Positions 1,580 through 41,783 of a stretch of DNA of 50,834 nt are shown here, one piece after another. The translations under genes and the position numbers were made by a program. The notes under the pieces were generated by a model, which saw only the letters and a list, made by a program, of their open reading frames with translations, had not been told where the DNA came from and made no database searches. Position 1 is the first letter of the stretch. Each line of letters starts with the position of its first letter. This DNA is from a virus: positions 1-50,834 of IMG/VR virus record IMGVR_UViG_3300024261_000046, one strand, 5' to 3'.

Positions 1580-3541
1580 TCAGGCCCCCGGAATGCGGAC
1601 GACCGAAGCCGCCAGAACAATGAAGTTGATCGGCTCGACGGCCGCCGCCTCGTAGTTGATGCGGAAGGTATCGCCCAGATCGTCAACGCTCATGTTGCGC
1701 CACGCTTTGATCCAGCCCAGCCGGACCTGCTCATCGAGTCGGGAGCTGGCCGCCGCCTTGATGCGGCCCGCCGTGCCTGCGATGGCCGGATTGCCGATGC
1801 GGGTGATCAGCGCGCTGCGCAGGTCGCGGACGCTGGTCTGCACGCTCTCCCAGGCCGACACCTCGGACAAGATGGGGTTGTCGTCGGTGAGGTAGGTCGT
1901 GACGCTGCGCGCCACCTTCCAGCCCAGGTTGTCCTTGCGGAGAATGACCACGCCAGCCGCGATCATTTCCTCCGCGTCGATGTTCGCGCCCCAGGTCTGG
2001 AACACGTCACGCACGCGGGGGCGGTTGTTGGTGAGGGGCCACGCAATCGGGCTGCCAGCCTGTCCCGCGCCCATCATCAGGGCGAGGTAGCTGGGCTCCA
2101 GCGTCGGCGTGGTGCCGTTGGGGTGGTCGACCTCGATCTGGTCGCCCACCAGCGCCACATAGCGCGTGTTGAGCGCCGCCGCCGCCGCCTTCACCTGGGC
2201 CTTGGTCTGGTTGCCGACCGTGCCCACCCAGGCGTTGCGCTCATAGCCCTGGAGCGCACTGTCGGTGCAGTGCTTGCTCATCAGGCCGTGGACAGCTCCG
2301 TCGGTGCTCAGCGGCACCACGATCTGCACGTCCTGATCCTTGATCGTGTCCAGCGCCGCCTGCCAGTCGGTCGTGCCGACGGGGCTGGCCTCGGACCCAC
2401 CCAGCATGTTGCCGCTCTGATCGCTGCTCAGGTCGACGGGCAGCAGGCTGGTGCCCCGCTCGGCCTCCACCAGCTGCGACACAGCCAAGCCGCTGACCAG
2501 CTGCGCCACGTCGGACGTGAGGGTCAGCAACGCCAACGCGCTGACCTCGCCGTTCGTCGCGTCCAGATCGGCCGCGTCGGTGCTGGCCGCCGTCGGGTCC
2601 AGGGTCGCCGTGGCCCAGCCGTTGATCTGCCCGATCTCGGTCAGGACGCCGGACACCTTGCGGCCCGTGTGCGGGATCAGCCGCCCGTTGTCACAGCCCA
2701 CAGTCACGGCAGGCGTGAGCGCGCCACCACTCAGCAAGCTGGCCACGCTGGTGATGCTGCCGAAGCTGGCCACCGTCGGGATGCTCAGCGCGCTCACGTC
2801 GGTGATCTGCACAACCTCGGCCTGCGGCGCACCCGCCAAGTCGGTGCCCGTGATCGTCACGTCCAGCGTCTCACCGGCCGATGCGTTCACGTCGGCGCTG
2901 ACGGTCACCACACCCGCACACGGCGCGTGGTCCCAATCGGTCGCCTCCGCAATGGGGTGCACAGCGCCCAGCAGGCGCGTCCACTCCAGGCGCGTCTGCG
3001 TGTTGTTGATCTGCACCACAGCCAGGGTGAGCACGCCACCCGTGTACTGGATGGTGCCCATCGCCGGGGTGTCGATCTCGATCTCTTCGGTGATGCCGTC
3101 GCGCAAGAAGGTCAGCGTGTGAACGGTGCCGGTCTTGCTCACGTCGTAGTTGAGCCGGTTGCCGGTCAGCCCCCACACGCGGCTCTTGAGCACCATCGCC
3201 TGCCCGCCCAGCGTGTCCAGCAGGTCCGCGAAAGCCTGGGTGCTGGTGGCCGTGCTGACGACCCACAACGACGACGCACCGCCCGGCACCGCGTCGTCGG
3301 CGAACGGGTCAAACGCCAGCTTGCCGATCAGCTTCAGATCGTCGGACGCGGGATCGTAGTCTGCCAGCGCGCGCGCGCTGGTGAACTGCTGCGGGGTGGA
3401 CTGCTGAAAGCCCGGCAGGTCTGCCACAAGGGCCACCGCCCCCACGCTGGTCCCGCGCCCACCCAGGGCGTCCGTGTTGATCTCGGCCTTGACGCCGGGG
3501 CTGTAGATCCGCCGACCGTTCAAGAGAATGCTGCTCGGCAT
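1580..3541 (-). CDS. Tail sheath protein
   Basis: This 653-residue protein is the contractile sheath subunit. The N-terminus (MPSSILLNGRRIYSPGVKAE) has the tail-sheath YSPGV-type entry, followed by a region that positions the subunit on the tube. A middle stretch of roughly residues 200-400 is rich in Val, Thr and Ser and looks like inserted surface domains. The C-terminal third contains the segments ending in GWIKAWRNMSVDDLGDTFRI and the last beta strand (INFIVLAASVVRI), typical of the conserved sheath core. ATG at 3541 has GGAGG seven bases upstream. It is larger than the roughly 400-500 residues of P2 and Mu sheaths because of the middle insertions. It identifies the phage as a myovirus. 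Confidence 0.9.
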   Translation of the reverse strand: MPSSILLNGRRIYSPGVKAEINTDALGGRGTSVGAVALVADLPGFQQSTPQQFTSARALADYDPASDDLKLIGKLAFDPFADDAVPGGASSLWVVSTATSTQAFADLLDTLGGQAMVLKSRVWGLTGNRLNYDVSKTGTVHTLTFLRDGITEEIEIDTPAMGTIQYTGGVLTLAVVQINNTQTRLEWTRLLGAVHPIAEATDWDHAPCAGVVTVSADVNASAGETLDVTITGTDLAGAPQAEVVQITDVSALSIPTVASFGSITSVASLLSGGALTPAVTVGCDNGRLIPHTGRKVSGVLTEIGQINGWATATLDPTAASTDAADLDATNGEVSALALLTLTSDVAQLVSGLAVSQLVEAERGTSLLPVDLSSDQSGNMLGGSEASPVGTTDWQAALDTIKDQDVQIVVPLSTDGAVHGLMSKHCTDSALQGYERNAWVGTVGNQTKAQVKAAAAALNTRYVALVGDQIEVDHPNGTTPTLEPSYLALMMGAGQAGSPIAWPLTNNRPRVRDVFQTWGANIDAEEMIAAGVVILRKDNLGWKVARSVTTYLTDDNPILSEVSAWESVQTSVRDLRSALITRIGNPAIAGTAGRIKAAASSRLDEQVRLGWIKAWRNMSVDDLGDTFRINYEAAAVEPINFIVLAASVVRIPGA

Positions 3542-7669: not shown

Positions 7670-9106
7670 CTACAGGCCCGCCGAGTTGACGCCAGCGTTC
7701 TTGAGAACCCAGGTCTTGGTTGGGACCTTGACGATGGGCGCGCCGAACAGCATCAGCATGAACGGCTTGGTGGTTTCCACCTCGGCCAGCGGCCGACGCA
7801 TGTAGTCCAGCAGCTTCACCCACTCGAAGATCTGGGGGTCGTGCTTGATGGCCAGGATCTTGCTGGTGCCCGGCTTGTCGACGTTGTTGTCGACGATGGC
7901 CGTGCCGCCCGCGCCGCCGTAGACCACGGTCTGCATCAGCTCGGCGGTCGCATAGGTGCCGTCCTTGGCGCTGCGGAAGATGCGGTAGTAGGCGGGCAGG
8001 ATCGCGGGAGCGCCCGCGATGGTGAACGTGACCTGATCCCCGGCGACCACGGCCACGCCAGCGGTCGTCAAGAACGCCGACACGCCCTTGGTGCCCACGG
8101 CCTCGATGAAGTAGGTGTAGGTCCCGGCGTCAGCCGCGTTGAACTGGCTCGCGCCAGCCGCACCCGCCGCGATGGCCACGCTCAGGGTCGGGGTCGTCGG
8201 GATGGTGTCGCCCACGCCGAAGTCGCGCGCGGCGGTCTTGGCGAGGTTGGTGGGGACCGGCCACTTGTTGTAGAGGAAGGGCGCGCTGACGATGGGAACC
8301 GGCCCGTAGGGGCTCATCACGCACAGCTCCTTGGCTCCCCAGGTCAGCTTGCTGCCGTCCTGAATGCTCAGCTGGTCGTGTCGCCCGTGGCTGACGGTCT
8401 GCCGGATCAGCTCGCTGTGGATGCGGGGCTCGACGTAGATCGCGTCCACGTCCCCGTAGTTGGGCGCTCCGTACAGCTCGCCCAGCATTTCCTGCAACAG
8501 ATCGACGGTCGGCGCGGAGCCAGCCAAGTCGGTGACGTTGCTCGGCGCGTTGTCCTCGATCTGCTTGAAGATGCCGTCAAACGCGAGCGGGTTCACGTCG
8601 GAGTCGCCGTGGAAGATGGCGCGCTCGGTGCGCTGGAGCAACCGGATGGTGCCGCGCTCCGTCTCTTCGGCCAGCGCGTTGCGGTTGGCCCCGATGAGGC
8701 CCACCATCGTTGCCACGTCGGTGACCTCGCGCCGCTCCGCGAGATACTTGATCCGCACGCTCTTGCGCTCGTACTCGCTGCGGTTGGTGGCCGGGACGCT
8801 GCCCTCGGCGAAGAACGGGTCCAAGTCGGCCCCGTGCTCCTTCACCACGCTGTACTCGTGGAGCGTCTGGGTCACGTCCCGCTTCGGGATCCGCTTCCAC
8901 AGGCTGAGCTGCTTCATGGTGTAGGTGGCGCTCGCGAGCACGCTCTCGATGCTCTGCGGCACCAGCGGGCTGAAGGTGCCCGTGTCGCCGCCGCTGGTGG
9001 TCGCGCCGGTCTGGTAGCCAACGCTGGCCGCCTTTCGCAACGCGGTGTTCAAGGCAACCAGATCCGCCACGGGGACGTTCTGGTTGTTGTTCGGGATGCT
9101 CATCAT
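7670..9106 (-). CDS. Major capsid protein (HK97 fold) with an inserted Ig/FN3-like domain
   Basis: This 478-residue protein is the best candidate for the capsid subunit. It follows scaffold and protease genes and has HK97-type features: an N-arm, an E-loop region near residues 85-130 (VVKEHGADLDPFFAEGS, then RKSVRIKYLAERREV), the spine helix around 140-165 (NALAEETERGTIRLLQRTER), and a C-terminal closing strand (PFMLMLFGAPIVKVPTKTW). Residues about 301-413 form a Thr/Val/Ala-rich beta segment with GTYTYFIEAVG and YYRIFRSA, resembling an Ig or fibronectin III repeat inserted in the A-domain side. Residues 22-52 contain a stretch almost identical to one in the protease, probably a maturation cleavage region. 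Confidence 0.88.
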   Translation of the reverse strand: MMSIPNNNQNVPVADLVALNTALRKAASVGYQTGATTSGGDTGTFSPLVPQSIESVLASATYTMKQLSLWKRIPKRDVTQTLHEYSVVKEHGADLDPFFAEGSVPATNRSEYERKSVRIKYLAERREVTDVATMVGLIGANRNALAEETERGTIRLLQRTERAIFHGDSDVNPLAFDGIFKQIEDNAPSNVTDLAGSAPTVDLLQEMLGELYGAPNYGDVDAIYVEPRIHSELIRQTVSHGRHDQLSIQDGSKLTWGAKELCVMSPYGPVPIVSAPFLYNKWPVPTNLAKTAARDFGVGDTIPTTPTLSVAIAAGAAGASQFNAADAGTYTYFIEAVGTKGVSAFLTTAGVAVVAGDQVTFTIAGAPAILPAYYRIFRSAKDGTYATAELMQTVVYGGAGGTAIVDNNVDKPGTSKILAIKHDPQIFEWVKLLDYMRRPLAEVETTKPFMLMLFGAPIVKVPTKTWVLKNAGVNSAGL

Positions 9107-9168
9107 GATCTTGAATGTTCCTTCAGGGGCCTCCAGGCCCCGTCAACGACGCCGCAGCGCCAAGCTGA

Positions 9169-27650: not shown

Positions 27651-28151
27651 CTAAGCACCTCCTTGTGCGCAGGATACCAGATCGGCCGCGCGTGCGTGAA
27701 TGCGCGCGGCCGTGCCGTGGTCGCGCCAGATCAACCAGTAGACGCGCCGCCGCAGGACCCAGGGGTCCGCGTACCGCACCGCTGACCCGAAGGACAGCAG
27801 CACGGCCTCCGCGTGCGCGTAGGCTTCGGCCTCTACGCGCCGCCGAAACCACGGGTCCAGCGCGTAGCGTAGCGGCCACAGGATGCGTGACCCCTCGCCT
27901 TGCAGCACATGCACGGCCTCGTGCACCAGTAGCGCCAGATCGGCCAGCGTGGGCCGGGCCACGTCTGCCGACGGCCGAAGCCAGATTTGCCGCGCTGGGT
28001 GGATCGTGATGCTGCGGCCTTTGCCCAGGATCAGCGGCTCAGTGCGCAGGGCCACGCGCCAGCCGCGCGCGCGCAGCATGCGCAGCACGGCCGACCAGCG
28101 ATCCTGAACGCTGCCGTGCATCCACGGCCCTGGGTCCACCAGCTCGATCAC
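27651..28151 (-). CDS. Putative zinc metallopeptidase (HEAVH)
   Basis: This 166-residue protein has HEAVH at residues 77-81 within LADLALLVHEAVHVLQGEG, a gluzincin HExxH zinc site. A third ligand may be Glu107 or Glu109 (RRVEAEAYAHAEAV), about 25-28 residues downstream. The layout resembles small peptidase-like domains seen in phage and toxin proteins. It lies between a Mom-like cargo gene and structural genes, sharing a GTGA junction with the former. A role in processing cargo or virion proteins, or in attacking a host protein, is conceivable. No signal peptide is seen. Activity is inferred from the motif only. Confidence 0.6.
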   Translation of the reverse strand: MIELVDPGPWMHGSVQDRWSAVLRMLRARGWRVALRTEPLILGKGRSITIHPARQIWLRPSADVARPTLADLALLVHEAVHVLQGEGSRILWPLRYALDPWFRRRVEAEAYAHAEAVLLSFGSAVRYADPWVLRRRVYWLIWRDHGTAARIHARAADLVSCAQGGA

Positions 28152-29623
28152 AGCGTTTCCGCCAGCTGTTGGATCAGGGCTGGGCGCTTGCCCAGGCCCG
28201 GCTGCCCCCGCATGGCCACCAGCTTGCGAAGCGTGGGCGTGTCCAGCCCGCGCGCTGCCGCCCAGCGTGCGATCACGGGTACGGCCTGGGCTGCCTGGGC
28301 CGCGTAGTCGGTCGCGTCCAGCCCAGCGAACAACCGCCCCCGGTCGGTGCGCTCTAGCTCGCCGTGTAGCGTGTGCAGCCTGTCCAGCGTCTTGAGCACC
28401 TTGGGGTCAGCTTCGCTCGCGTCTGGCCCCGCCTCCCACCGGATCTTGAACTCGTCGGATCGGCGCTCTTTGGACTGCTTGCCGCCGCCGCGTGTGACCC
28501 AGCCGACCGGGCGCATGCCCTTGCCCTCCAGGGCTCGGTACGTTGACCCCTTCTCCGTGCTCAAGCTGTAGGTGACCAGCCGCCCGCGCCCCGTCTTCTC
28601 CATCGCCGCTAGGATCTGCCCAGCCAGCGCGGAGCTGGCGAACGGGGTAGTGCCGTCCGACGCGATCCGGGTTAGCTCCAGCTCGTTGGCCTTCTTGGCC
28701 GGGTCCCCGCCGCCGCTGGGCGTGTTGGCCGTAGCCACCGCCACCAGCCGCCCGCCCACCCGGAGCCCCACCGCGAAGACCAGCCCGCGAGGATTGAAGC
28801 CCTCAAACGCGCTGTGGTGCTGGTTGATGAAACGCTCAGCCTCGACCTTGCTCACGTTCACGATCCGCCGCTTCTTGGTGGTCGCGTCCATGCTGTCCTC
28901 AACGATGGCCTCCAACAGCCACCGGGGCGCACCACCCGCCGCGCCCACGCGCTCCGTCGTGTGTCGCACCACCCGCCCCTTGGCGTGCTGCTTGGCCTCG
29001 CGCCCAGGCGCAACCCCACCGTGCCCCTCGCCCAGCACCAGCGCCACAGCCCCGCGCAGGTCACCCACAGGCAACCCTGGGTAGGCGGCAAGGTCAACCA
29101 TGCTTAGGCCGTGGGTCGGGTCGGGCTCGTTGTCCGCGCTCCCGTGCTCGGCGTGCCAGCTGTAGGCCCCCGCCCAATCGGGGTCAGCCACCGCACGCCG
29201 CAGAGCGCCCACAATGCCCTCTGCGGCCTCGCCTTGCTCTGGGCCGGGTGCTGGCCCCCGATAACCCTTCTCGCCCGCCTGGGGGGCACCCTGGGCACCG
29301 TGGCGCGCCCAATACGTCTCCCCGCGCAGCCGCTTGGCTGGGTTGGGTAGCTGGGGCGCAGGCGCAGGCGCGGGCGCGCGATAGCTCAGCAGGTCCAGCT
29401 GGTCACGCGGGCGGGCCGTGTCCACCCCATGTCCATGCCGCGTCTGGTTGCGTCTGGTAGGCTGAGCGGGGGCACCGCCCAGGCTTAGCTGACGCGGGGC
29501 AACCTCGCCCAGCGGCAACGCCCCTTGCCCATAATCGTACTGGTAGTGTCCCGGCGAGCCCGTGCGCTTGCCCTTGCCTTTGTAGGGCGTCCAGCCGCGC
29601 GCCTTGAGGATCTGGCCATACAT
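28148..29623 (-). CDS. Cargo protein with Mom/XF1762-like acyltransferase domain (491 aa)
   Basis: I start at ATG 29623 (MYGQILKARGWTPYKGKG); 29686 would overlap the previous gene. QLSLG (45-49) and QLDLL (75-79) resemble clamp-type pentapeptides. PGHYQYDYG near residue 25-33 is reminiscent of the YWYP tag end. Residues about 255-380 match the Mom/XF1762 GNAT-like fold of phage DNA-modification enzymes: FINQHHSAFEGFNPRGLVFA, LVAVATANTPSGG, ELELTRIASDGTTPFASSAL, RGRLVTYSLSTEKGSTYRAL, KGMRPVGWV. Mom modifies adenine in phage Mu to resist restriction. Here the domain is fused to a cargo-type N-terminus, which suggests either packaged or late-acting DNA modification. Confidence 0.7.
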   Translation of the reverse strand: MYGQILKARGWTPYKGKGKRTGSPGHYQYDYGQGALPLGEVAPRQLSLGGAPAQPTRRNQTRHGHGVDTARPRDQLDLLSYRAPAPAPAPQLPNPAKRLRGETYWARHGAQGAPQAGEKGYRGPAPGPEQGEAAEGIVGALRRAVADPDWAGAYSWHAEHGSADNEPDPTHGLSMVDLAAYPGLPVGDLRGAVALVLGEGHGGVAPGREAKQHAKGRVVRHTTERVGAAGGAPRWLLEAIVEDSMDATTKKRRIVNVSKVEAERFINQHHSAFEGFNPRGLVFAVGLRVGGRLVAVATANTPSGGGDPAKKANELELTRIASDGTTPFASSALAGQILAAMEKTGRGRLVTYSLSTEKGSTYRALEGKGMRPVGWVTRGGGKQSKERRSDEFKIRWEAGPDASEADPKVLKTLDRLHTLHGELERTDRGRLFAGLDATDYAAQAAQAVPVIARWAAARGLDTPTLRKLVAMRGQPGLGKRPALIQQLAETL

Positions 29624-29633
29624 GCCCGCGAGT

Positions 29634-29804
29634 CTACCGCACGCGGGTGTACTTGCGCCCTTTCTTCGACGCGATCCCGCACTCAACCAGCCAGTCGCGC
29701 GCCGCCTGGGCGTGCTCGGCGTGCTCAGGCCGCAACTCCTTGGTGGGGGGCAGCTGGCCGCCCACAGGGGTCACGTCGAGCATCGCCCGCGCCGCGTACC
29801 TCAC
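29634..29804 (-). CDS. Very small basic protein after the wHTH
   Basis: This 56-residue protein starts at GTG 29804, overlapping the previous stop (GTGA), and ends ten bases before the Mom-like gene. It has a helix HAEHAQAARDWLVECGIASK and a basic end GRKYTRVR that resembles the wing of a winged-helix protein. It may be the partner of the preceding wHTH protein. Confidence 0.5.
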   Translation of the reverse strand: MRYAARAMLDVTPVGGQLPPTKELRPEHAEHAQAARDWLVECGIASKKGRKYTRVR

Positions 29805-34932: not shown

Positions 34933-34952
34933 CACGCGCTCAGGGTACTACC
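34933..34952 (-). repeat. 20-base direct repeat at gene ends, copy 1
   Basis: The coding-strand sequence GGTAGTACCCTGAGCGCGTG occurs here and at 35153-35172, each time across a stop codon. A similar block with two mismatches lies at about 41541-41560 inside the transglycosylase gene. Confidence 0.6.
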
Positions 34953-35127
34953 GCGCCCGCTCTGCCGTCCACAGCTTGAGCACCGCCGCAGCCGCGCCCA
35001 GGGCCGTCAGGTGGGTGCCCACCAGCTCCCCGTTGCGCTCAATGTCTACCCAGGCGTGCCCGCTCTCGTTGTGGGGCACCAGTTGGTAGGGGGCCGCCAG
35101 CCTGTTGATCGCGTCGAACGCCGCCAA
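34948..35127 (-). CDS. Small protein of unknown function
   Basis: The frame reads AAFDAINRLAAPYQLVPHNE, SGHAWVDIERNGELVGTHL and ends in LKLWTAERAR. It has protein-like composition and clear third-position GC, so it is probably expressed. No ATG or GTG is in frame; TTG 35127 is the best start but GGAGG lies only two bases ahead of it, so the true N-terminus is doubtful. Confidence 0.45.
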   Translation of the reverse strand: MAAFDAINRLAAPYQLVPHNESGHAWVDIERNGELVGTHLTALGAAAAVLKLWTAERAR

Positions 35128-35152: not shown

Positions 35153-35172
35153 CACGCGCTCAGGGTACTACC
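35153..35172 (-). repeat. 20-base direct repeat at gene ends, copy 2
   Basis: Second copy of the 34933-34952 element, spanning the stop of the cysteine-rich small protein. Possible recombination junction or regulatory motif. Confidence 0.6.
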
Positions 35173-35372: not shown

Positions 35373-35580
35373 GGGGCCTGCTCCGCGTGCCCCGGCGCTT
35401 GCTGGGGATGCCGCGCCGCGTGCGCGCCCGCGCCACCGCCTGCAAGCTGCAACCGTACTTGGCCGCCGTCTCCCGGTCGGTCAACGTCAGCAGGTCCTCA
35501 ATCCGATCCTCCCAATGCGTTGCCCAGCGATGCGGGCCAGATCGCCCGTACTGCAACGCGGCCTGTTGCGCCTCAGTCAC
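35365..35580 (-). CDS. Small HTH protein
   Basis: From GTG 35580 (MTEAQQAALQYGRSGPHRW) this 71-residue protein contains RETAAKYGCSLQAVARARTR, a homeodomain-like helix-turn-helix, and an Arg-rich end (RRGTRSRPRA) suited to DNA binding. It is overlapped by genes on both sides. It resembles the HTH parts of resolvases or homing endonucleases, but no nuclease portion is present. Confidence 0.55.
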   Translation of the reverse strand: MTEAQQAALQYGRSGPHRWATHWEDRIEDLLTLTDRETAAKYGCSLQAVARARTRRGIPSKRRGTRSRPRA

Positions 35581-35785
35581 GCAGCACCCCCAACTCACGG
35601 GCGCGCGCCGTGGCGCGGCCTAGCCTGTAGCGGCCCAGCTCCGTTGTTGCGTCGACGGGCAGCAGCAAGGTGCGCGTCAGCGGCGCGGCCCGGTCCCACC
35701 ATTCATGGACGTGTGACAGCCCAGGCGGCTCGCCGCAGGTCCACCCCGCCGCCGTCAGCGCCTCGCGGAGCTGGCCCAGCTTCAC
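35573..35785 (-). CDS. Small protein of unknown function
   Basis: Starting at GTG 35785, which overlaps the membrane peptide stop (GTGA), this is a 70-residue protein: MKLGQLREALTAAGWTCGEP, then LSHVHEWWDRAAPLTRTLLL. It is alpha/beta-like with a conserved-looking HEWWDR motif. Longer frames upstream would overlap the membrane peptide. Confidence 0.5.
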   Translation of the reverse strand: MKLGQLREALTAAGWTCGEPPGLSHVHEWWDRAAPLTRTLLLPVDATTELGRYRLGRATARARELGVLRD

Positions 35786-35904
35786 CGCCACCACTCCCAG
35801 GCACGTCGGGCAGGCTCGCCACAAGCGCGCTCTAGGCCAGCTGCCAGCGCGTCCAGCGCGCCCAGGGTCAGCAATAGGCCCAGCACCACCGCGTTGCCGA
35901 TCAC
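35782..35904 (-). CDS. Single-pass membrane peptide, copy A (40 aa)
   Basis: GTG 35904 gives MIGNAVVLGLLLTLGALDAL then AAGLERACGEPARRAWEWWR. Residues 4-22 form one transmembrane helix, followed by a basic, Trp-rich tail. It is a near copy of 36253-36369 over the first 29 residues; the tails differ. It overlaps the next gene (GTGA) and the preceding one. It might be a holin/antiholin-like or superinfection-exclusion peptide; no family is recognised. Confidence 0.55.
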   Translation of the reverse strand: MIGNAVVLGLLLTLGALDALAAGLERACGEPARRAWEWWR

Positions 35905-35905
35905 G
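35817..35905. repeat. 89-base direct repeat, copy A
   Basis: Matches 36282-36370 at 86 of 89 positions, 465 bases apart. It encodes the transmembrane part and start of two small proteins. Confidence 0.9.
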
Positions 35906-36260
35906 ACGGCACCGGCGCGGCTTCGAGGCCTGCGATCAAGGCGTCTAGCTCGCTCTTGAACTCGCCGCTCGCGGTGCCCCGACTCCAGAACCAGTACCCC
36001 GACAGTGATCGCATCGGAGTGAGCGTCTGATTGGAGAACGCCTCCCGCACCAGCACGAGCACACCGAGCACGGTGAGCGGGTCGGTGAAGTCTGGTTGGT
36101 TCCAGAAACCGCGCTCAACGGCATCGACGCCCCACCACTTGACCTCGCCGTCACGCGCCCACTCGACGCGGCGACCCCGCGTGTCGGCCATCCCCGACAG
36201 TAGCCTCCAACTGGGGCACGCGAGCGCGCGGCGGGCGAGGTCTTGCAGACCGTCAGGCAT
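35901..36260 (-). CDS. Conserved phage protein of unknown function
   Basis: From ATG 36260 this is 119 residues: MPDGLQDLARRALACPSWRL, GMADTRGRRVEWARDGEVKW, then DFTDPLTVLGVLVLVREAF. The pattern CPxWRxLxGM followed by a closing DLTDPATLGxLLxLVREA-type helix is familiar from many hypothetical phage proteins; its role is unknown. It is enclosed by the two copies of the membrane peptide. GTG 36287 is an alternative start. Codon use leans to TCG and CTC, unlike the head genes. Confidence 0.6.
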   Translation of the reverse strand: MPDGLQDLARRALACPSWRLLSGMADTRGRRVEWARDGEVKWWGVDAVERGFWNQPDFTDPLTVLGVLVLVREAFSNQTLTPMRSLSGYWFWSRGTASGEFKSELDALIAGLEAAPVPS

Positions 36261-36369
36261 CGCATCCACCAGAGCGGCACGCGCCACAAGCGCGCTCTAG
36301 GCCAGCTGCCAGCGCGTCCAGCGCGCCTAGGGTCAGCAATAGGCCCAGCACCACCGCGTCACCGATCAC
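36253..36369 (-). CDS. Single-pass membrane peptide, copy B (38 aa)
   Basis: GTG 36369 gives MIGDAVVLGLLLTLGALDAL then AAGLERACGACRSGGCDA. The first 29 residues equal copy A except Asn4 to Asp4. The tail is Cys- and Gly-rich instead of Trp/Arg-rich, so duplication kept the membrane helix while changing the soluble end. It overlaps both neighbours. Confidence 0.55.
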   Translation of the reverse strand: MIGDAVVLGLLLTLGALDALAAGLERACGACRSGGCDA

Positions 36370-36370
36370 G
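36282..36370. repeat. 89-base direct repeat, copy B
   Basis: Second copy of 35817-35905. The low divergence implies a recent duplication or gene conversion. Confidence 0.9.
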
Positions 36371-36689
36371 GCTCCAGCTCCACCACAAGCGCCCGCGCAG
36401 CTAGCCCCGCCGCCGTCAGCACCCCACCCGGTCGCCCAGGCCCCAGCATCACCCGGCGCGCCCAGCGCCGCTTGACCAGCCCCACCAGCGTCGTGCGGTA
36501 CAGGCGCGGCTCCTGCGTCCTCGGGCCGTCGCGCAGCGCCCAAGGCTCAGCACCGCCCCCAGGCCAGTCGCGCAGCGCGTTGGCTGCGCCGTAGGTCATG
36601 CCGTCGGGTAGGTCGGGGCACCGCTCGCAGTAGTCCCGTGCCCCCGTCCCCATCTTCGCTGGCGCTCGGCACAGCTCCCCACAACGCAT
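36366..36689 (-). CDS. Small cysteine-containing protein
   Basis: This 107-residue protein (MRCGELCRAPAKMGTGARDY, then CERCPDLPDGMTYG) has a Cys4 cluster near the N-terminus and a basic end (VKRRWARRVMLGPGRPGG). A strong ribosome binding site (GGAGGTG) precedes ATG 36689. It is the first gene of the small-gene cluster behind the intergenic gap. The C-terminal part resembles short winged-helix proteins (LYRTTLVGLVKRRWARRV). Role unknown. Confidence 0.5.
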   Translation of the reverse strand: MRCGELCRAPAKMGTGARDYCERCPDLPDGMTYGAANALRDWPGGGAEPWALRDGPRTQEPRLYRTTLVGLVKRRWARRVMLGPGRPGGVLTAAGLAARALVVELEP

Positions 36690-36832
36690 AACCCACCTCC
36701 ACGTCCAGCGCCGACCGTGCCGCGCGGGCCACCTGGGGTCAAGCGCGCAGCTGTCCTGTTAGCTGCCCGCTTAGTGTCCGCTTAGCGCGAACCCCGCTAG
36801 GTACGCTGGTTCGCGGCTATCTTCGCCCTTGA
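36690..36832. other. Intergenic gap with hairpins between RNA ligase and small genes
   Basis: GCAGCT (36747-36752) and AGCTGC (36761-36766), and GCGAACC (36787-36793) and GGTTCGC (36808-36814), form two stem-loops. CCGCTTAG is repeated at about 36768 and 36778. The gap is a candidate end of the RNA ligase transcript with a promoter for the small genes, but no clear -35/-10 pair was found. Confidence 0.4.
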
Positions 36833-37819
36833 TCACTTTTCCTGTTGCATAGGGCTCGGGCTGCCGGTGTCGGTGGGGAGCACGAGGCTGGCCTGTTTCA
36901 CGGCGTCTTTCCAGTAGGTCAGGGCGCGTCCGTTGACCCCCTTCACCAGTAGCTTCCAGGTGAGTCCAGACGCCTCGATGTTGTCCGTGCACTCCCGCTC
37001 AACGTCCCCCGCGAACCAGCGGAGGAAGTGGGAGGTGGAGGTCATATCGAGGGGGTAGCCCATCTCCTCGACGTACTCCACCCCCTGGGCCAGCCGGTGG
37101 GGGGTGACCGCGAAGTTGAGGAAGGTCAGGACGTTCTCCAGGACCTCGGGGGTCGAGCGCTCGCCCTTCTCCTTGGGCTTCGTGGCGCGGTGTTTCTCCC
37201 CCTTGCTCTTGAAGTAGAGTTCGGGGGGGTTACCGCCCAGAGGGACCCAGACGACCCCCTCCCCGATGCCCGTGAGGTCCCACTGGGCAGCCCAGGGGCA
37301 CTGGAACTCCACCCTCTCGGTCAGGAGCGTGGCCTCCTCCGCAGCCTTCTTCACGCTGGCGGGGTCCTGGAAGTCGATCTCCAGGTAGCCTGCGGGCTGG
37401 GCGAGGTAGACCGGGGCCGACCACTGGGGGTCTACCCCGCACATCGGGATGTACCCCGCCTCCTCCTTCCATGCCGTGAACACCACGAATTGGCGGGAGG
37501 GGAGCTTGTGGATCGCGCACCCCTTCTGGATACCAGGGCCACACCACTCCCCGAAGTAGGTGATGTCCTGCCCCCGCGCAACGTCCCGGAAGAAGTCCGC
37601 GTTCTTGTCCACGAAGGACGCAAAGCCAAGGTTGTCGTCCCCCACGACGAGGGGGCGGTTCCGGGACTGGGCGGTGACGACCCCCTCGGGGGTGACGTGG
37701 ACTCCTCCGTTGGTCCCGTGGAGCTTCACTGTCCCCCGGAAGGACACCTTCCCGATGCCCCTGGGGGCTGCCCACTTGAACACCTGGGAGAGGCTCCCGA
37801 TGTGCGTGTATTTCTTCAC
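36833..37819 (-). CDS. Rnl2-like RNA ligase (328 aa)
   Basis: This protein carries nucleotidyltransferase ligase motifs in order: motif I KLHGTN (32-37, Lys32 adenylated), motif III region FGEWCGPGIQKG (89-100), motif IV GEGVVWVP (186-193) and motif V FKSKGEKH (203-210). The KxHG variant marks the RNA-editing/Rnl2 family of RNA ligases, which seal nicked or cut RNAs; T4 ligases repair tRNAs cut by host defence nucleases. The C-terminus is helical. GTG 37819 has GGAG eight bases before it. Codon use favours CTC, TCC, GGG and CCC, unlike neighbouring genes, suggesting a different origin. Confidence 0.85.
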   Translation of the reverse strand: MKKYTHIGSLSQVFKWAAPRGIGKVSFRGTVKLHGTNGGVHVTPEGVVTAQSRNRPLVVGDDNLGFASFVDKNADFFRDVARGQDITYFGEWCGPGIQKGCAIHKLPSRQFVVFTAWKEEAGYIPMCGVDPQWSAPVYLAQPAGYLEIDFQDPASVKKAAEEATLLTERVEFQCPWAAQWDLTGIGEGVVWVPLGGNPPELYFKSKGEKHRATKPKEKGERSTPEVLENVLTFLNFAVTPHRLAQGVEYVEEMGYPLDMTSTSHFLRWFAGDVERECTDNIEASGLTWKLLVKGVNGRALTYWKDAVKQASLVLPTDTGSPSPMQQEK

Positions 37820-38377: not shown

Positions 38378-38505
38378 CGCGCCACCATCCACACGGTCAG
38401 CCCGGCGCAGCCCAGGGCCAGCAGGGCCAACACCACGTTCCACGCCAGCTGCGCCAGCGCCAAGCCCAGGGCCAGCACCACCACGCCAGCCGCTTTAATC
38501 CTCAT
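38374..38505 (-). CDS. Two-helix membrane peptide (43 aa)
   Basis: The gene reads MRIKAAGVVVLALGLALAQL then AWNVVLALLALGCAGLTVWM, ending VAR. It has two hydrophobic helices separated by a short turn at AWN. ATG 38505 lies inside the methyltransferase end, with GGAGG just ahead. A similar peptide is on the plus strand at 47653-47781. Small hairpin membrane proteins of this kind can be holins, but size and charge do not prove that. Confidence 0.6.
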   Translation of the reverse strand: MRIKAAGVVVLALGLALAQLAWNVVLALLALGCAGLTVWMVAR

Positions 38506-39967
38506 CGTCAGCCTCCAGCTCCACGTGCTTGATACGCCCTACTGCGATTCTCACACTCTCAGGATCACGCTCAATGCCCATGAAAAACACACCTTCGCGA
38601 ACAGCCGCAACACCCGTTGTCCCGCTGCCTGTGAACGGGTCCAACACCACGCCGCCCCGTGGGGTCACTAACCGCACCAGCCACCGCATCAGGTCAACGG
38701 GTTTGACCGTGGGGTGTGTGTTGGCGCGCTTCTGCCCATCTGGCGCAACCAGCCCCGCCTCGCGTTCGGCGCGGCGCGGCTTCGGGACGTATCTGAACCT
38801 GAAAGACGGAAAGAACCGCGCCGCCGTGCCGGTGTCGCCCAGGCCACCTGTCGCACCTGCCGTCGCAGCCCTTTTACCTCCACCGCTCTGCTCGCCCAGC
38901 GTGCCGACTGCGCAGCCCTCGACACAGCCCGCGCCGTTGTTGTCGCCGTCGCAGCCGGGGGGGTGGGCGAGCAGGACGTTCGGGGGCCAGCGCCCCCGTG
39001 TGAGCTGCCCAGAGCCCGGCGTATTGCAACGCTCCATCTGGGCGGCGTCGTCCCTGGTCGTAGCTACCCTACACCCGTCCACGTTCAGGCCGCCGACCCC
39101 ATGCTCCAGCACGTTCGCAGCGACGGTGCCGCTCAGCGGCTTGCGGCAGAGCAGGATGGGCTCGGCGGCAGGCTTGAGCGCGGTGCCCCAGCCGTCCCAC
39201 TGGCGCGCGGCGTCGGTTGCGGGCGCGGTGATATCGCCGCCGATCGCACCGAGGCGGCTCCCCGCAAAACCGCCCATATCCCTAACGTGCGAGCCGACTT
39301 TGGCGCGGTCGGCCGCCGCAAGGAGTGGTTGCCACGCTTCGGACAGTGCAGGCAACGCGCGAGCCAGTGCTGGCCAGTGCCGGGCCGCCGGGAACTGATG
39401 GTGTTCCCAATTCCAGCACGCGCCAGAGCGCGTACCCACTACCTGCTCGCTCACGTCGGCTCTAGACATTCCAGCCGATGCGCGGGCCGCCGCAAGCTCT
39501 GCGGCGAACCTGTCATGCGCCACGACACCCGGTCGCGCGTCAATCGCCTTCGACACGTCCAGCGACTTCGGGAACCCGGTTCCGTAAAGCCACTGGAGCG
39601 AGTCGCGTACCTCGAAGCCTGCCAGCCGCAGCGCCATGCCCATCAGGTCAACGGTGCGCGACCCGGCGAACGCGAGTAGGTGGCCACCGGGCTTGAGCAC
39701 GCGCAGGCACTCACGCCACACGCGCGGACCCGGCACCCACGAATCCCACGCGCGGCCCATGAATCCACCACCGGCCGCCTCGTGCTCGTCGCCGTCGAGC
39801 CACGCCCGCAGGCACGCCGCGACCTTCGCCGGGCTCGTGTCGCCCAGCCCATACGGCGGGTCGGTGACGATGGCGTCAACGCTCGCGTCGGGCAGCAGTT
39901 GCAGGTAGTCCTTGCAATCAGCATGCACCACAGCCGCCCGGTCCCCGATGGTGATCACTTCACTCAT
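38495..39967 (-). CDS. DNA methyltransferase with an inserted HTH (490 aa)
   Basis: Catalytic motif IV DPPYGLGD (36-43) comes early and the SAM-binding motif DPFTGSGTTGVAA (443-455) comes late, the circular order of beta-class amino methyltransferases, which methylate N6-adenine or N4-cytosine. Residues about 152-208 contain a helix-turn-helix (ASAGMSRADVSEQVVGTRSG), an XRE-like DNA-binding insertion absent from ordinary family members. A Cys-rich, Gly-rich loop (CDGDNNGAGCVEGCAVGTLG) is near 340-360. The end VELEADDED is repeated in the upstream gene. ATG 39967 is preferred for its GGAGG spacing. Confidence 0.85.
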   Translation of the reverse strand: MSEVITIGDRAAVVHADCKDYLQLLPDASVDAIVTDPPYGLGDTSPAKVAACLRAWLDGDEHEAAGGGFMGRAWDSWVPGPRVWRECLRVLKPGGHLLAFAGSRTVDLMGMALRLAGFEVRDSLQWLYGTGFPKSLDVSKAIDARPGVVAHDRFAAELAAARASAGMSRADVSEQVVGTRSGACWNWEHHQFPAARHWPALARALPALSEAWQPLLAAADRAKVGSHVRDMGGFAGSRLGAIGGDITAPATDAARQWDGWGTALKPAAEPILLCRKPLSGTVAANVLEHGVGGLNVDGCRVATTRDDAAQMERCNTPGSGQLTRGRWPPNVLLAHPPGCDGDNNGAGCVEGCAVGTLGEQSGGGKRAATAGATGGLGDTGTAARFFPSFRFRYVPKPRRAEREAGLVAPDGQKRANTHPTVKPVDLMRWLVRLVTPRGGVVLDPFTGSGTTGVAAVREGVFFMGIERDPESVRIAVGRIKHVELEADDED

Positions 39968-40796
39968 CATCAGCCTCCAGCTCCACGCGGGCCTGCACCG
40001 TCAGCGCGCCCGCCAATCCATCGCCCAGCTCCGCGAGCTGGGACACGTCCACGCCGAACTGCTTAGCCGCCAGCGCCACAGGGTCCACCACGGCCACCTG
40101 GGCCACGTTGATCGTGGTCTGCGCCCCAGCCGCCTCGGCCCCCATATCCGCACCGATCAAGGCCGCTTGCCGCTTCTGGGCCTCGATAGCCACCTTGAGC
40201 AACGCCGAAGCGTCCCGCGCCTCATCGACACCCTCAAGCCGCCGCAGCGCCTCCACCTGTACCCGGTGAGCATCCCACCACAGGCGCTCGCGCCGGGTGG
40301 CCACGATGGCAGGCGTCAGCGCGTCGTAACGCCCCCGCGTCTCTTTGTTGAGCGCCTGGGTCGTGTGTAGCGGTAGCCCCGTCGCCTTCGCGATCTCGCC
40401 CAGCGTCAGCCCACGCCCGCGCGCCTCGCTGACCACGCGGCCCCATTCGTGCCAGACCGTGCCAACGCGGGCACCGCGCGCAGGCAGCTCCACAGGCACC
40501 ATGATCCCCGACCACGGCCCCCCCAGCTCCATTTCACGCAGCACAGGCCCCTCCGTAGGAGGGGGGGCACGCTTGCTCTTTTTCTTGAGTGATTGCGGTG
40601 GGTTGTCTGCCGGAAGCTCAGGCAACATAGCAGGTTTGTTGACACGGCACCAGCGCCCCCAGCCGTCCAGGCTCACCCAGCGCCCACCGCTCTGCCCAGG
40701 GCGCACCCACCGCACGCGGCCCGGCTCCACGGCCACCACTACGCGCCCCGGCCCGTCCACGGGCTGCCAGTAGCTCCCGACTGCGGGCTCAGTCAC
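39960..40796 (-). CDS. HTH protein, possible small terminase subunit or regulator
   Basis: GTG 40796 gives 278 residues (MTEPAVGSYWQPVDGPGRVV). After a beta-rich start and basic linker (LKKKSKRAPPPTEG), an HTH lies in GLTLGEIAKATGLPLHTTQA, then a helical stretch VEALRRLEGVDEARDASALL, KVAIEAQKRQAALIGADMGA. This HTH followed by a helix ending in LIGA/LLGL recalls phage small terminases and related HTH adaptors. The gene is nine kb from the large terminase, so the assignment is tentative; a transcription regulator is equally possible. It ends VELEADDE, like the methyltransferase. Confidence 0.5.
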   Translation of the reverse strand: MTEPAVGSYWQPVDGPGRVVVAVEPGRVRWVRPGQSGGRWVSLDGWGRWCRVNKPAMLPELPADNPPQSLKKKSKRAPPPTEGPVLREMELGGPWSGIMVPVELPARGARVGTVWHEWGRVVSEARGRGLTLGEIAKATGLPLHTTQALNKETRGRYDALTPAIVATRRERLWWDAHRVQVEALRRLEGVDEARDASALLKVAIEAQKRQAALIGADMGAEAAGAQTTINVAQVAVVDPVALAAKQFGVDVSQLAELGDGLAGALTVQARVELEADDE

Positions 40797-41388: not shown

Positions 41389-41783
41389 CCCACGACCCTC
41401 TCAGCATAGGCCCAGGCCAGCGGCCCCGGCCTGTTACCTGCGTTGTACCTCGCGATGCCCTCCAGGGCACCGTAGCGGCCCGTCAGCGCCGCCAGCGCCC
41501 CAACCCCTGCCGCTACCAAGTCACAGCCCTCTAGCACGCGCTCAGGGCACCACCAGCGCGGGATCACCTGCATCGGCCCCACAGCCTGCGCGGAGCTGAC
41601 CGCGCCAGCGTCCAGCCGCGACTCGTGAAAGGCAAGCGAGACGGCCAGCCCAGGGTCAACCCCGTGCGCCACAGCCTGCGCCGTCACGTCCACGCACACC
41701 AGCGCACGCGCAGGCAGGTCGGTGGCGTGCTCGCCCGCCAGCGCCAGCAGCGCGACCACGCACGGCTTGGTCAGCCACCACAT
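41379..41783 (-). CDS. Lytic transglycosylase (SLT-like), membrane-anchored
   Basis: ATG 41783 gives 134 residues, starting with an N-terminal hydrophobic segment (MWWLTKPCVVALLALAGEHA) that serves as signal or anchor. Glu54 in AVSLAFHESRLDAG is the likely catalytic acid, followed by AQAVGPMQVIPRWWCPE and GIARYNAGNRPGPLAWAYAE, the usual goose-lysozyme/SLT order. It would cut peptidoglycan for lysis. It is a compact version. It sits in a coupled group of small proteins (TGATG start). Confidence 0.8.
   Translation of the reverse strand: MWWLTKPCVVALLALAGEHATDLPARALVCVDVTAQAVAHGVDPGLAVSLAFHESRLDAGAVSSAQAVGPMQVIPRWWCPERVLEGCDLVAAGVGALAALTGRYGALEGIARYNAGNRPGPLAWAYAERVVGWM

Follow-up and report, generated by a model that had tools for sequence, protein, structure and literature searches.

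An accessory gene of an uncultured myovirus was probably added to its present position by recombination between copies of an 89-nt sequence that encodes the start of a membrane microprotein. The gene now lies between two such copies, each of which opens a small reading frame, TMa or TMb, with the same hydrophobic helix and a different tail. The window, that is, the whole stretch of 50,834 nt analysed here (IMG/VR record IMGVR_UViG_3300024261_000046), is part of the genome of this phage, with tail sheath, major head protein, portal and terminase genes present. A second IMG/VR record, of 77,867 bases, starts at window position 8864 and ends at window position 8990; because this 127-nt terminal overlap closes the record on itself, it is apparently the whole genome, of ~77.7 kb. 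All genes around the repeat are encoded on the − strand, and the order of transcription is 107-aa gene, TMb (38 aa), 119/128-aa gene, TMa (40 aa) and 70-aa gene. The coordinates of all these features are collected in Table 1.

Table 1. Positions in the window of the repeats, microproteins and bracketed genes.
Feature	Position	Strand	Remarks
89-nt repeat, upstream copy (transcribed first)	36282..36370	−	begins at stop codon of 107-aa gene
89-nt repeat, downstream copy	35817..35905	−	begins at stop codon of gene between copies
107-aa gene before TMb	36366..36689	−	
TMb, 38-aa membrane microprotein	36253..36369	−	shared helix and tail ACRSGGCDA
Gene between 89-nt copies	35901..36287	−	no known family; start preferably at ATG 36260 (119 aa), otherwise at GTG 36287 (128 aa)
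TMa, 40-aa membrane microprotein	35782..35904	−	shared helix and tail EPARRAWEWWR; GTGA overlap with each neighbour
70-aa gene after TMa	35573..35785	−	listed as 83 aa from TTG 35824; GTGA overlap with TMa stop
25-nt junction repeat, upstream copy	39963..39987	−	end of 313-aa gene (VELEADDE) and ATG of methyltransferase; 24/25 with 38501-38525
DNA N6/N4 methyltransferase gene, bracketed by 25-nt repeat	38495..39970	−	PF01555, 1e-27
25-nt junction repeat, downstream copy	38501..38525	−	end of methyltransferase (VELEADDED) and ATG of 43-aa membrane peptide
20-nt junction repeat, upstream copy	35153..35172	−	end of 70-aa gene at 35160; 20/20 with 34933-34952, spacing 220
59-aa gene, bracketed by 20-nt repeat	34948..35127	−	
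20-nt junction repeat, downstream copy	34933..34952	−	end of 59-aa gene

An 89-nt coding repeat opens at two stop/start overlaps

The two copies of the repeat are in direct orientation, match at 86 of 89 positions and are spaced 465 nt apart, exactly as the initial annotation of this DNA had described them. Their ends are sharp and both copies open precisely at a GTGA stop/start overlap, each providing the stop codon of the preceding gene and the start codon of the membrane peptide. The sequence is unique on all four sides of the copies, which differ from each other by three single-base changes, two of them silent in the microprotein frame. In the closed 77,867-base record the repeat occurs twice, with no further copies. 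A scan of the window for exact repeats in direct orientation, at most 1.5 kb apart, picked up this pair as well as repeats at the junctions around two further genes (see below), whereas none of 30 dinucleotide shuffles of the window contained a direct repeat of at least 18 nt within that distance. A 16-nt repeat (35744/36405) was discounted, since it was not above the longest chance repeat in the 30 shuffles. With the large genes of the phage as training set, codon scoring indicated that the 89-nt repeat is coding throughout: the microprotein frame scored positive and the remaining five frames were all negative.

Two membrane microproteins share a helix and differ in their tails

The TMa peptide reads MIGNAVVLGLLLTLGALDALAAGLERACG-EPARRAWEWWR and the TMb peptide MIGDAVVLGLLLTLGALDALAAGLERACG-ACRSGGCDA, so that the third base difference between the copies appears as N4D and the entire tail is different. 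The shared helix is hydrophobic, with a 19-residue hydropathy peak of 2.14, while a value of 1.9 is reached by only 0.24% of the 38-residue windows in the large proteins of the phage. The stop codon of TMa lies in a GTGA overlap with the start of the 70-aa gene (GTG 35785). TMb shares a GTGA overlap with the preceding 107-aa gene, and its last 8 nt overlap the following gene, counted from ATG 36260. Two peptides with one transmembrane helix and unrelated C-termini, both overlapping neighbouring genes, had already been reported in the initial annotation, and that description stands. Neighbouring genes of this phage typically overlap by 1, 4 or 8 nt, and therefore both microproteins are placed here as genes are.

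We then scored the reading frames by codon usage. For the whole ORF, the probability of a non-coding frame was 0.0007 for TMa and 0.0017 for TMb, and the shared 29 codons scored +0.66 and +0.57 bits per codon in the two copies. Both microprotein reading frames thus look coding. The TMb tail scored −9.0 bits over 9 codons, which is non-coding-like, and the TMa tail −2.4 bits over 11 codons, which is also not clearly coding. The TMb tail looks like the leader of the next gene rather than like selected protein sequence, and TMa is likely the original gene. A programmed frameshift into the next gene was considered and rejected, because the two next genes differ in frame relative to the microprotein and no common shift is possible. 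Neither TMa nor TMb matched known relatives or families, and neither matched a PHROG, holin family included, which is a weak test for such short peptides. When the two microproteins, their intervening gene and the genes on either side were searched against GenBank phages, plasmids and IMG/VR, only the same virus or nothing came back.

Two more genes of the same stretch are bracketed by junction repeats

The DNA N6/N4 methyltransferase gene and a 59-aa gene are also bracketed by repeats placed at gene junctions, and with them three bracketed genes lie within ~5 kb. In the whole phage, a shared repeat at gene ends (score of at least 20) was found in 3 of 99 neighbouring pairs of genes versus 3 of 1521 more distant pairs, and the three distant pairs all belong to a single repeat-rich stretch that lies outside the window. 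The automated scan of gene-end junctions that gave these counts missed the 89-nt pair itself. A third near-copy (18/20) of the 20-nt repeat is located inside the transglycosylase gene, at 41535-41554.

Relatives of the phage were found by their terminase, with identities from 75% down to 51%. The small genes of the stretch were all absent from these relatives in the sequence compared, which marks the stretch as a variable region. One of them, L011 (75% identical terminase), still has the terminus of the 313-aa gene (ARVVLEADFE vs ARVELEADDE) but a different gene next to it, with no methyltransferase there. This indicates that the upstream 25-nt copy is the old one and that the site is empty in L011. 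In most of the phage homologues listed, methyltransferase alignments stop at residues 473-488 of 491, a few homologues having other short tails. These alignment ends support, without deciding, the reading of VELEADDED as an addition. Harley gp70, a methyltransferase homologue with an acidic tail, weakens that reading without removing it.

Other repeats in the relatives were considered as parallels and set aside, being mostly protein-domain repeats that are not comparable. We noted in L013, a relative with a 59% identical terminase, a 121-nt intergenic repeat (274-394, 694-814 and 1097-1217) whose copies separate single small genes, with a fourth, partial copy at 1439. L011 carries a 38-nt inverted repeat (97%) at 3267-3304 and 9117-9154 that forms part of the coding sequence of two unrelated genes, one on each strand.

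Non-coding repeats of the phage

The PeSL promoter/stem-loop cassettes of T4-type phages are reportedly repeated intergenic units, thought to aid shuffling. They would be a non-coding analogue of the 89-nt repeat, which is coding and without a stem-loop. The likeness extends to the phage itself, which seems to carry stem-loop and promoter-like units outside the window. At L055 8878, 9537 and 11421 (+ strand) there is a repeated promoter-like unit (CTTGATCACTTTTCCTGTTGCATA...TATAGTC), with a stem-loop and SD/ATG before single genes, that is PeSL-like. An exact 26-nt copy of the core of this unit is present at window 36828-36853 (+ strand), where the RNA ligase, read from the opposite strand, has its C-terminal residues MQQEK. 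In addition, an intergenic 66-nt hairpin repeat (L055 9469-9535, 10513-10578 and 11827-11879; DNA fold z = −5.9) lies where three + strand genes end. Elsewhere in the window, positions 28151-29686, just downstream of the terminase, encode a protein with a Mom-like DNA modification match (phrog_1384, 1.2e-9).

Alternative explanations for the locus

An identical picture would be obtained if the two microprotein genes were old paralogues whose first 89 nt had been recently homogenised by gene conversion, while the tails, overlapping the start signals of the next gene, stayed different. Both copies are indeed coding-like and properly placed between coupled genes. We nevertheless regard gene conversion as rather unlikely, since it requires that two genes existed beforehand, of which the rest of the genome holds no trace, and that the conversion tract started exactly at the start codon. 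The non-coding-like tail of TMb also goes against it, and the neighbouring repeat-bracketed genes argue for a single common insertion process. As for an assembly artefact, the sequence is of metagenomic origin, but mis-assembly is scarcely credible because two other IMG/VR assemblies contain the locus with both 89-nt copies, so that the same structure appears in three assemblies; the single-base differences between the copies and the unique sequence around them point the same way. It is also very improbable that the repeat acts as DNA or RNA (an attC-like site, a promoter-terminator cassette or a structured RNA) and is open in one frame by chance. Real stem-loop and promoter-like cassettes do exist elsewhere in the same phage, but the 89-nt repeat gives a strong coding signal in just one of its frames and folds no better than shuffled sequences (z = −0.85 as DNA and +0.46 as RNA). 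Reading the repeat revealed none of the attC cores RYYYAAC/GTTRRRY, which together with the lack of a significant fold sets it apart from integron cassettes, and its coding nature and lack of structure set it apart from PeSL-type units with promoter plus stem-loop.

The initial annotation had proposed that the duplication produced an effector/antagonist pair, as in holin/antiholin systems. In such a pair, the identical helices would pair up in the membrane and the tails would make one peptide holin- or toxin-like and the other its inhibitor. TMa and TMb resemble such a pair in being two small membrane peptides with a common helix, and this helix has a small-xxx-small face (G15, A19, G23), the tails are of opposite character and both peptides are probably translated. 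However, they lie outside the lysis region, as the complete record has the endolysin and Rz-like spanin genes, with adjoining small membrane proteins, at a distance of ~26 kb. Neither peptide has a family match, and the tail of TMb is leader-like rather than coding-like. Furthermore, holin/antiholin pairs usually come from dual starts or separate genes. We consequently consider the proposal improbable. For a holin/antiholin-type function acquired later, nothing speaks beyond the appearance of the peptides.

Discussion

Having weighed these alternatives, we favour the addition of the gene between the copies by recombination. This preference is due to the two more genes nearby that are bracketed by junction repeats, to the 89-nt copies being near-identical, abrupt-ended, starting at a stop/start overlap and limited to two in the closed record, and to the non-coding-like tail of TMb. 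Both a recent duplication and an insertion hot spot, as put forward in the initial annotation, fit with this picture: the copies are near-identical even at silent sites and have sharp ends, and the gene between them is accompanied by the two further repeat-bracketed genes.

In the model that we propose, the original order would have been the 107-aa gene, TMa with its tail and the 70-aa gene, coupled through GTGA overlaps. The incoming DNA would have carried the 119/128-aa gene preceded by codons 1-29 of the microprotein. Recombination within the common sequence, either by a single crossover, the donor being a circle or a concatemer, or by exchange with another phage, would have left the new gene flanked by two 89-nt copies. 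TMb would then be a by-product, consisting of the old start and helix running into the leader of the newcomer and stopping at the start of the newcomer, an arrangement that would preserve the coupled translation of the operon. Exonuclease VIII-like proteins are expected in phages that use homology-driven recombination, and the presence of an exonuclease VIII-like gene in this phage is compatible with that process; an annealing protein partner was not identified in the phage. GenBank phages, plasmids and IMG/VR yielded no relative with a single 89-nt copy, or with the microprotein at all, and for this reason we infer, rather than observe, that the gene between the copies was inserted. The direction of the event, a gain and not gene conversion or a pending loss, is part of what we infer, as are the donor and the enzyme.

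Similar arrangements have been described in mycobacteriophages. The last 18 residues (~50 bp) of Island3 gene 68 match gene 67, and gene 68, which is absent in Brujita, has been attributed to recombination between short repeats (PMC3029335). LRRHood genes 43-46 are flanked by 29-bp direct repeats that are single in Cali (PMC3029335). As in Island3, the 89-nt locus contains an extra gene whose junction sequence repeats that of the preceding gene; what is shared in Island3, however, is a C-terminus, with a single-copy relative known, whereas here it is a whole gene start and the searches gave no single-copy relative. As in LRRHood, whose repeats are single in relatives, accessory gene content lies between direct repeats, but there the repeat brackets four genes, measures 29 bp, lies at gene ends and comes with no new peptide noted. 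In the 89-nt locus, direct repeats stand on either side of one gene, at gene junctions. By analogy, the locus would belong with those of Island3 and LRRHood, except that its duplicated junction comprises an entire gene start.

We tentatively suggest, as a possibility that is less than even, that this lineage adds accessory genes singly at coupled stop/start junctions through recombination that duplicates a coding junction. Operon coupling would thereby be kept and hybrid-ended microproteins would arise, in a coding counterpart of the cassettes that shuffle promoters and stem-loops. A further prediction from the paired 89-nt copies is that the phage could lose the 465-bp unit again. A look-alike pair of peptides is not necessarily a functional pair, and such pairs should be read with caution. 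Taken together, the locus may offer readable footprints of a phage accessory operon growing gene by gene, and illustrate how new, very small membrane proteins can arise from such events.
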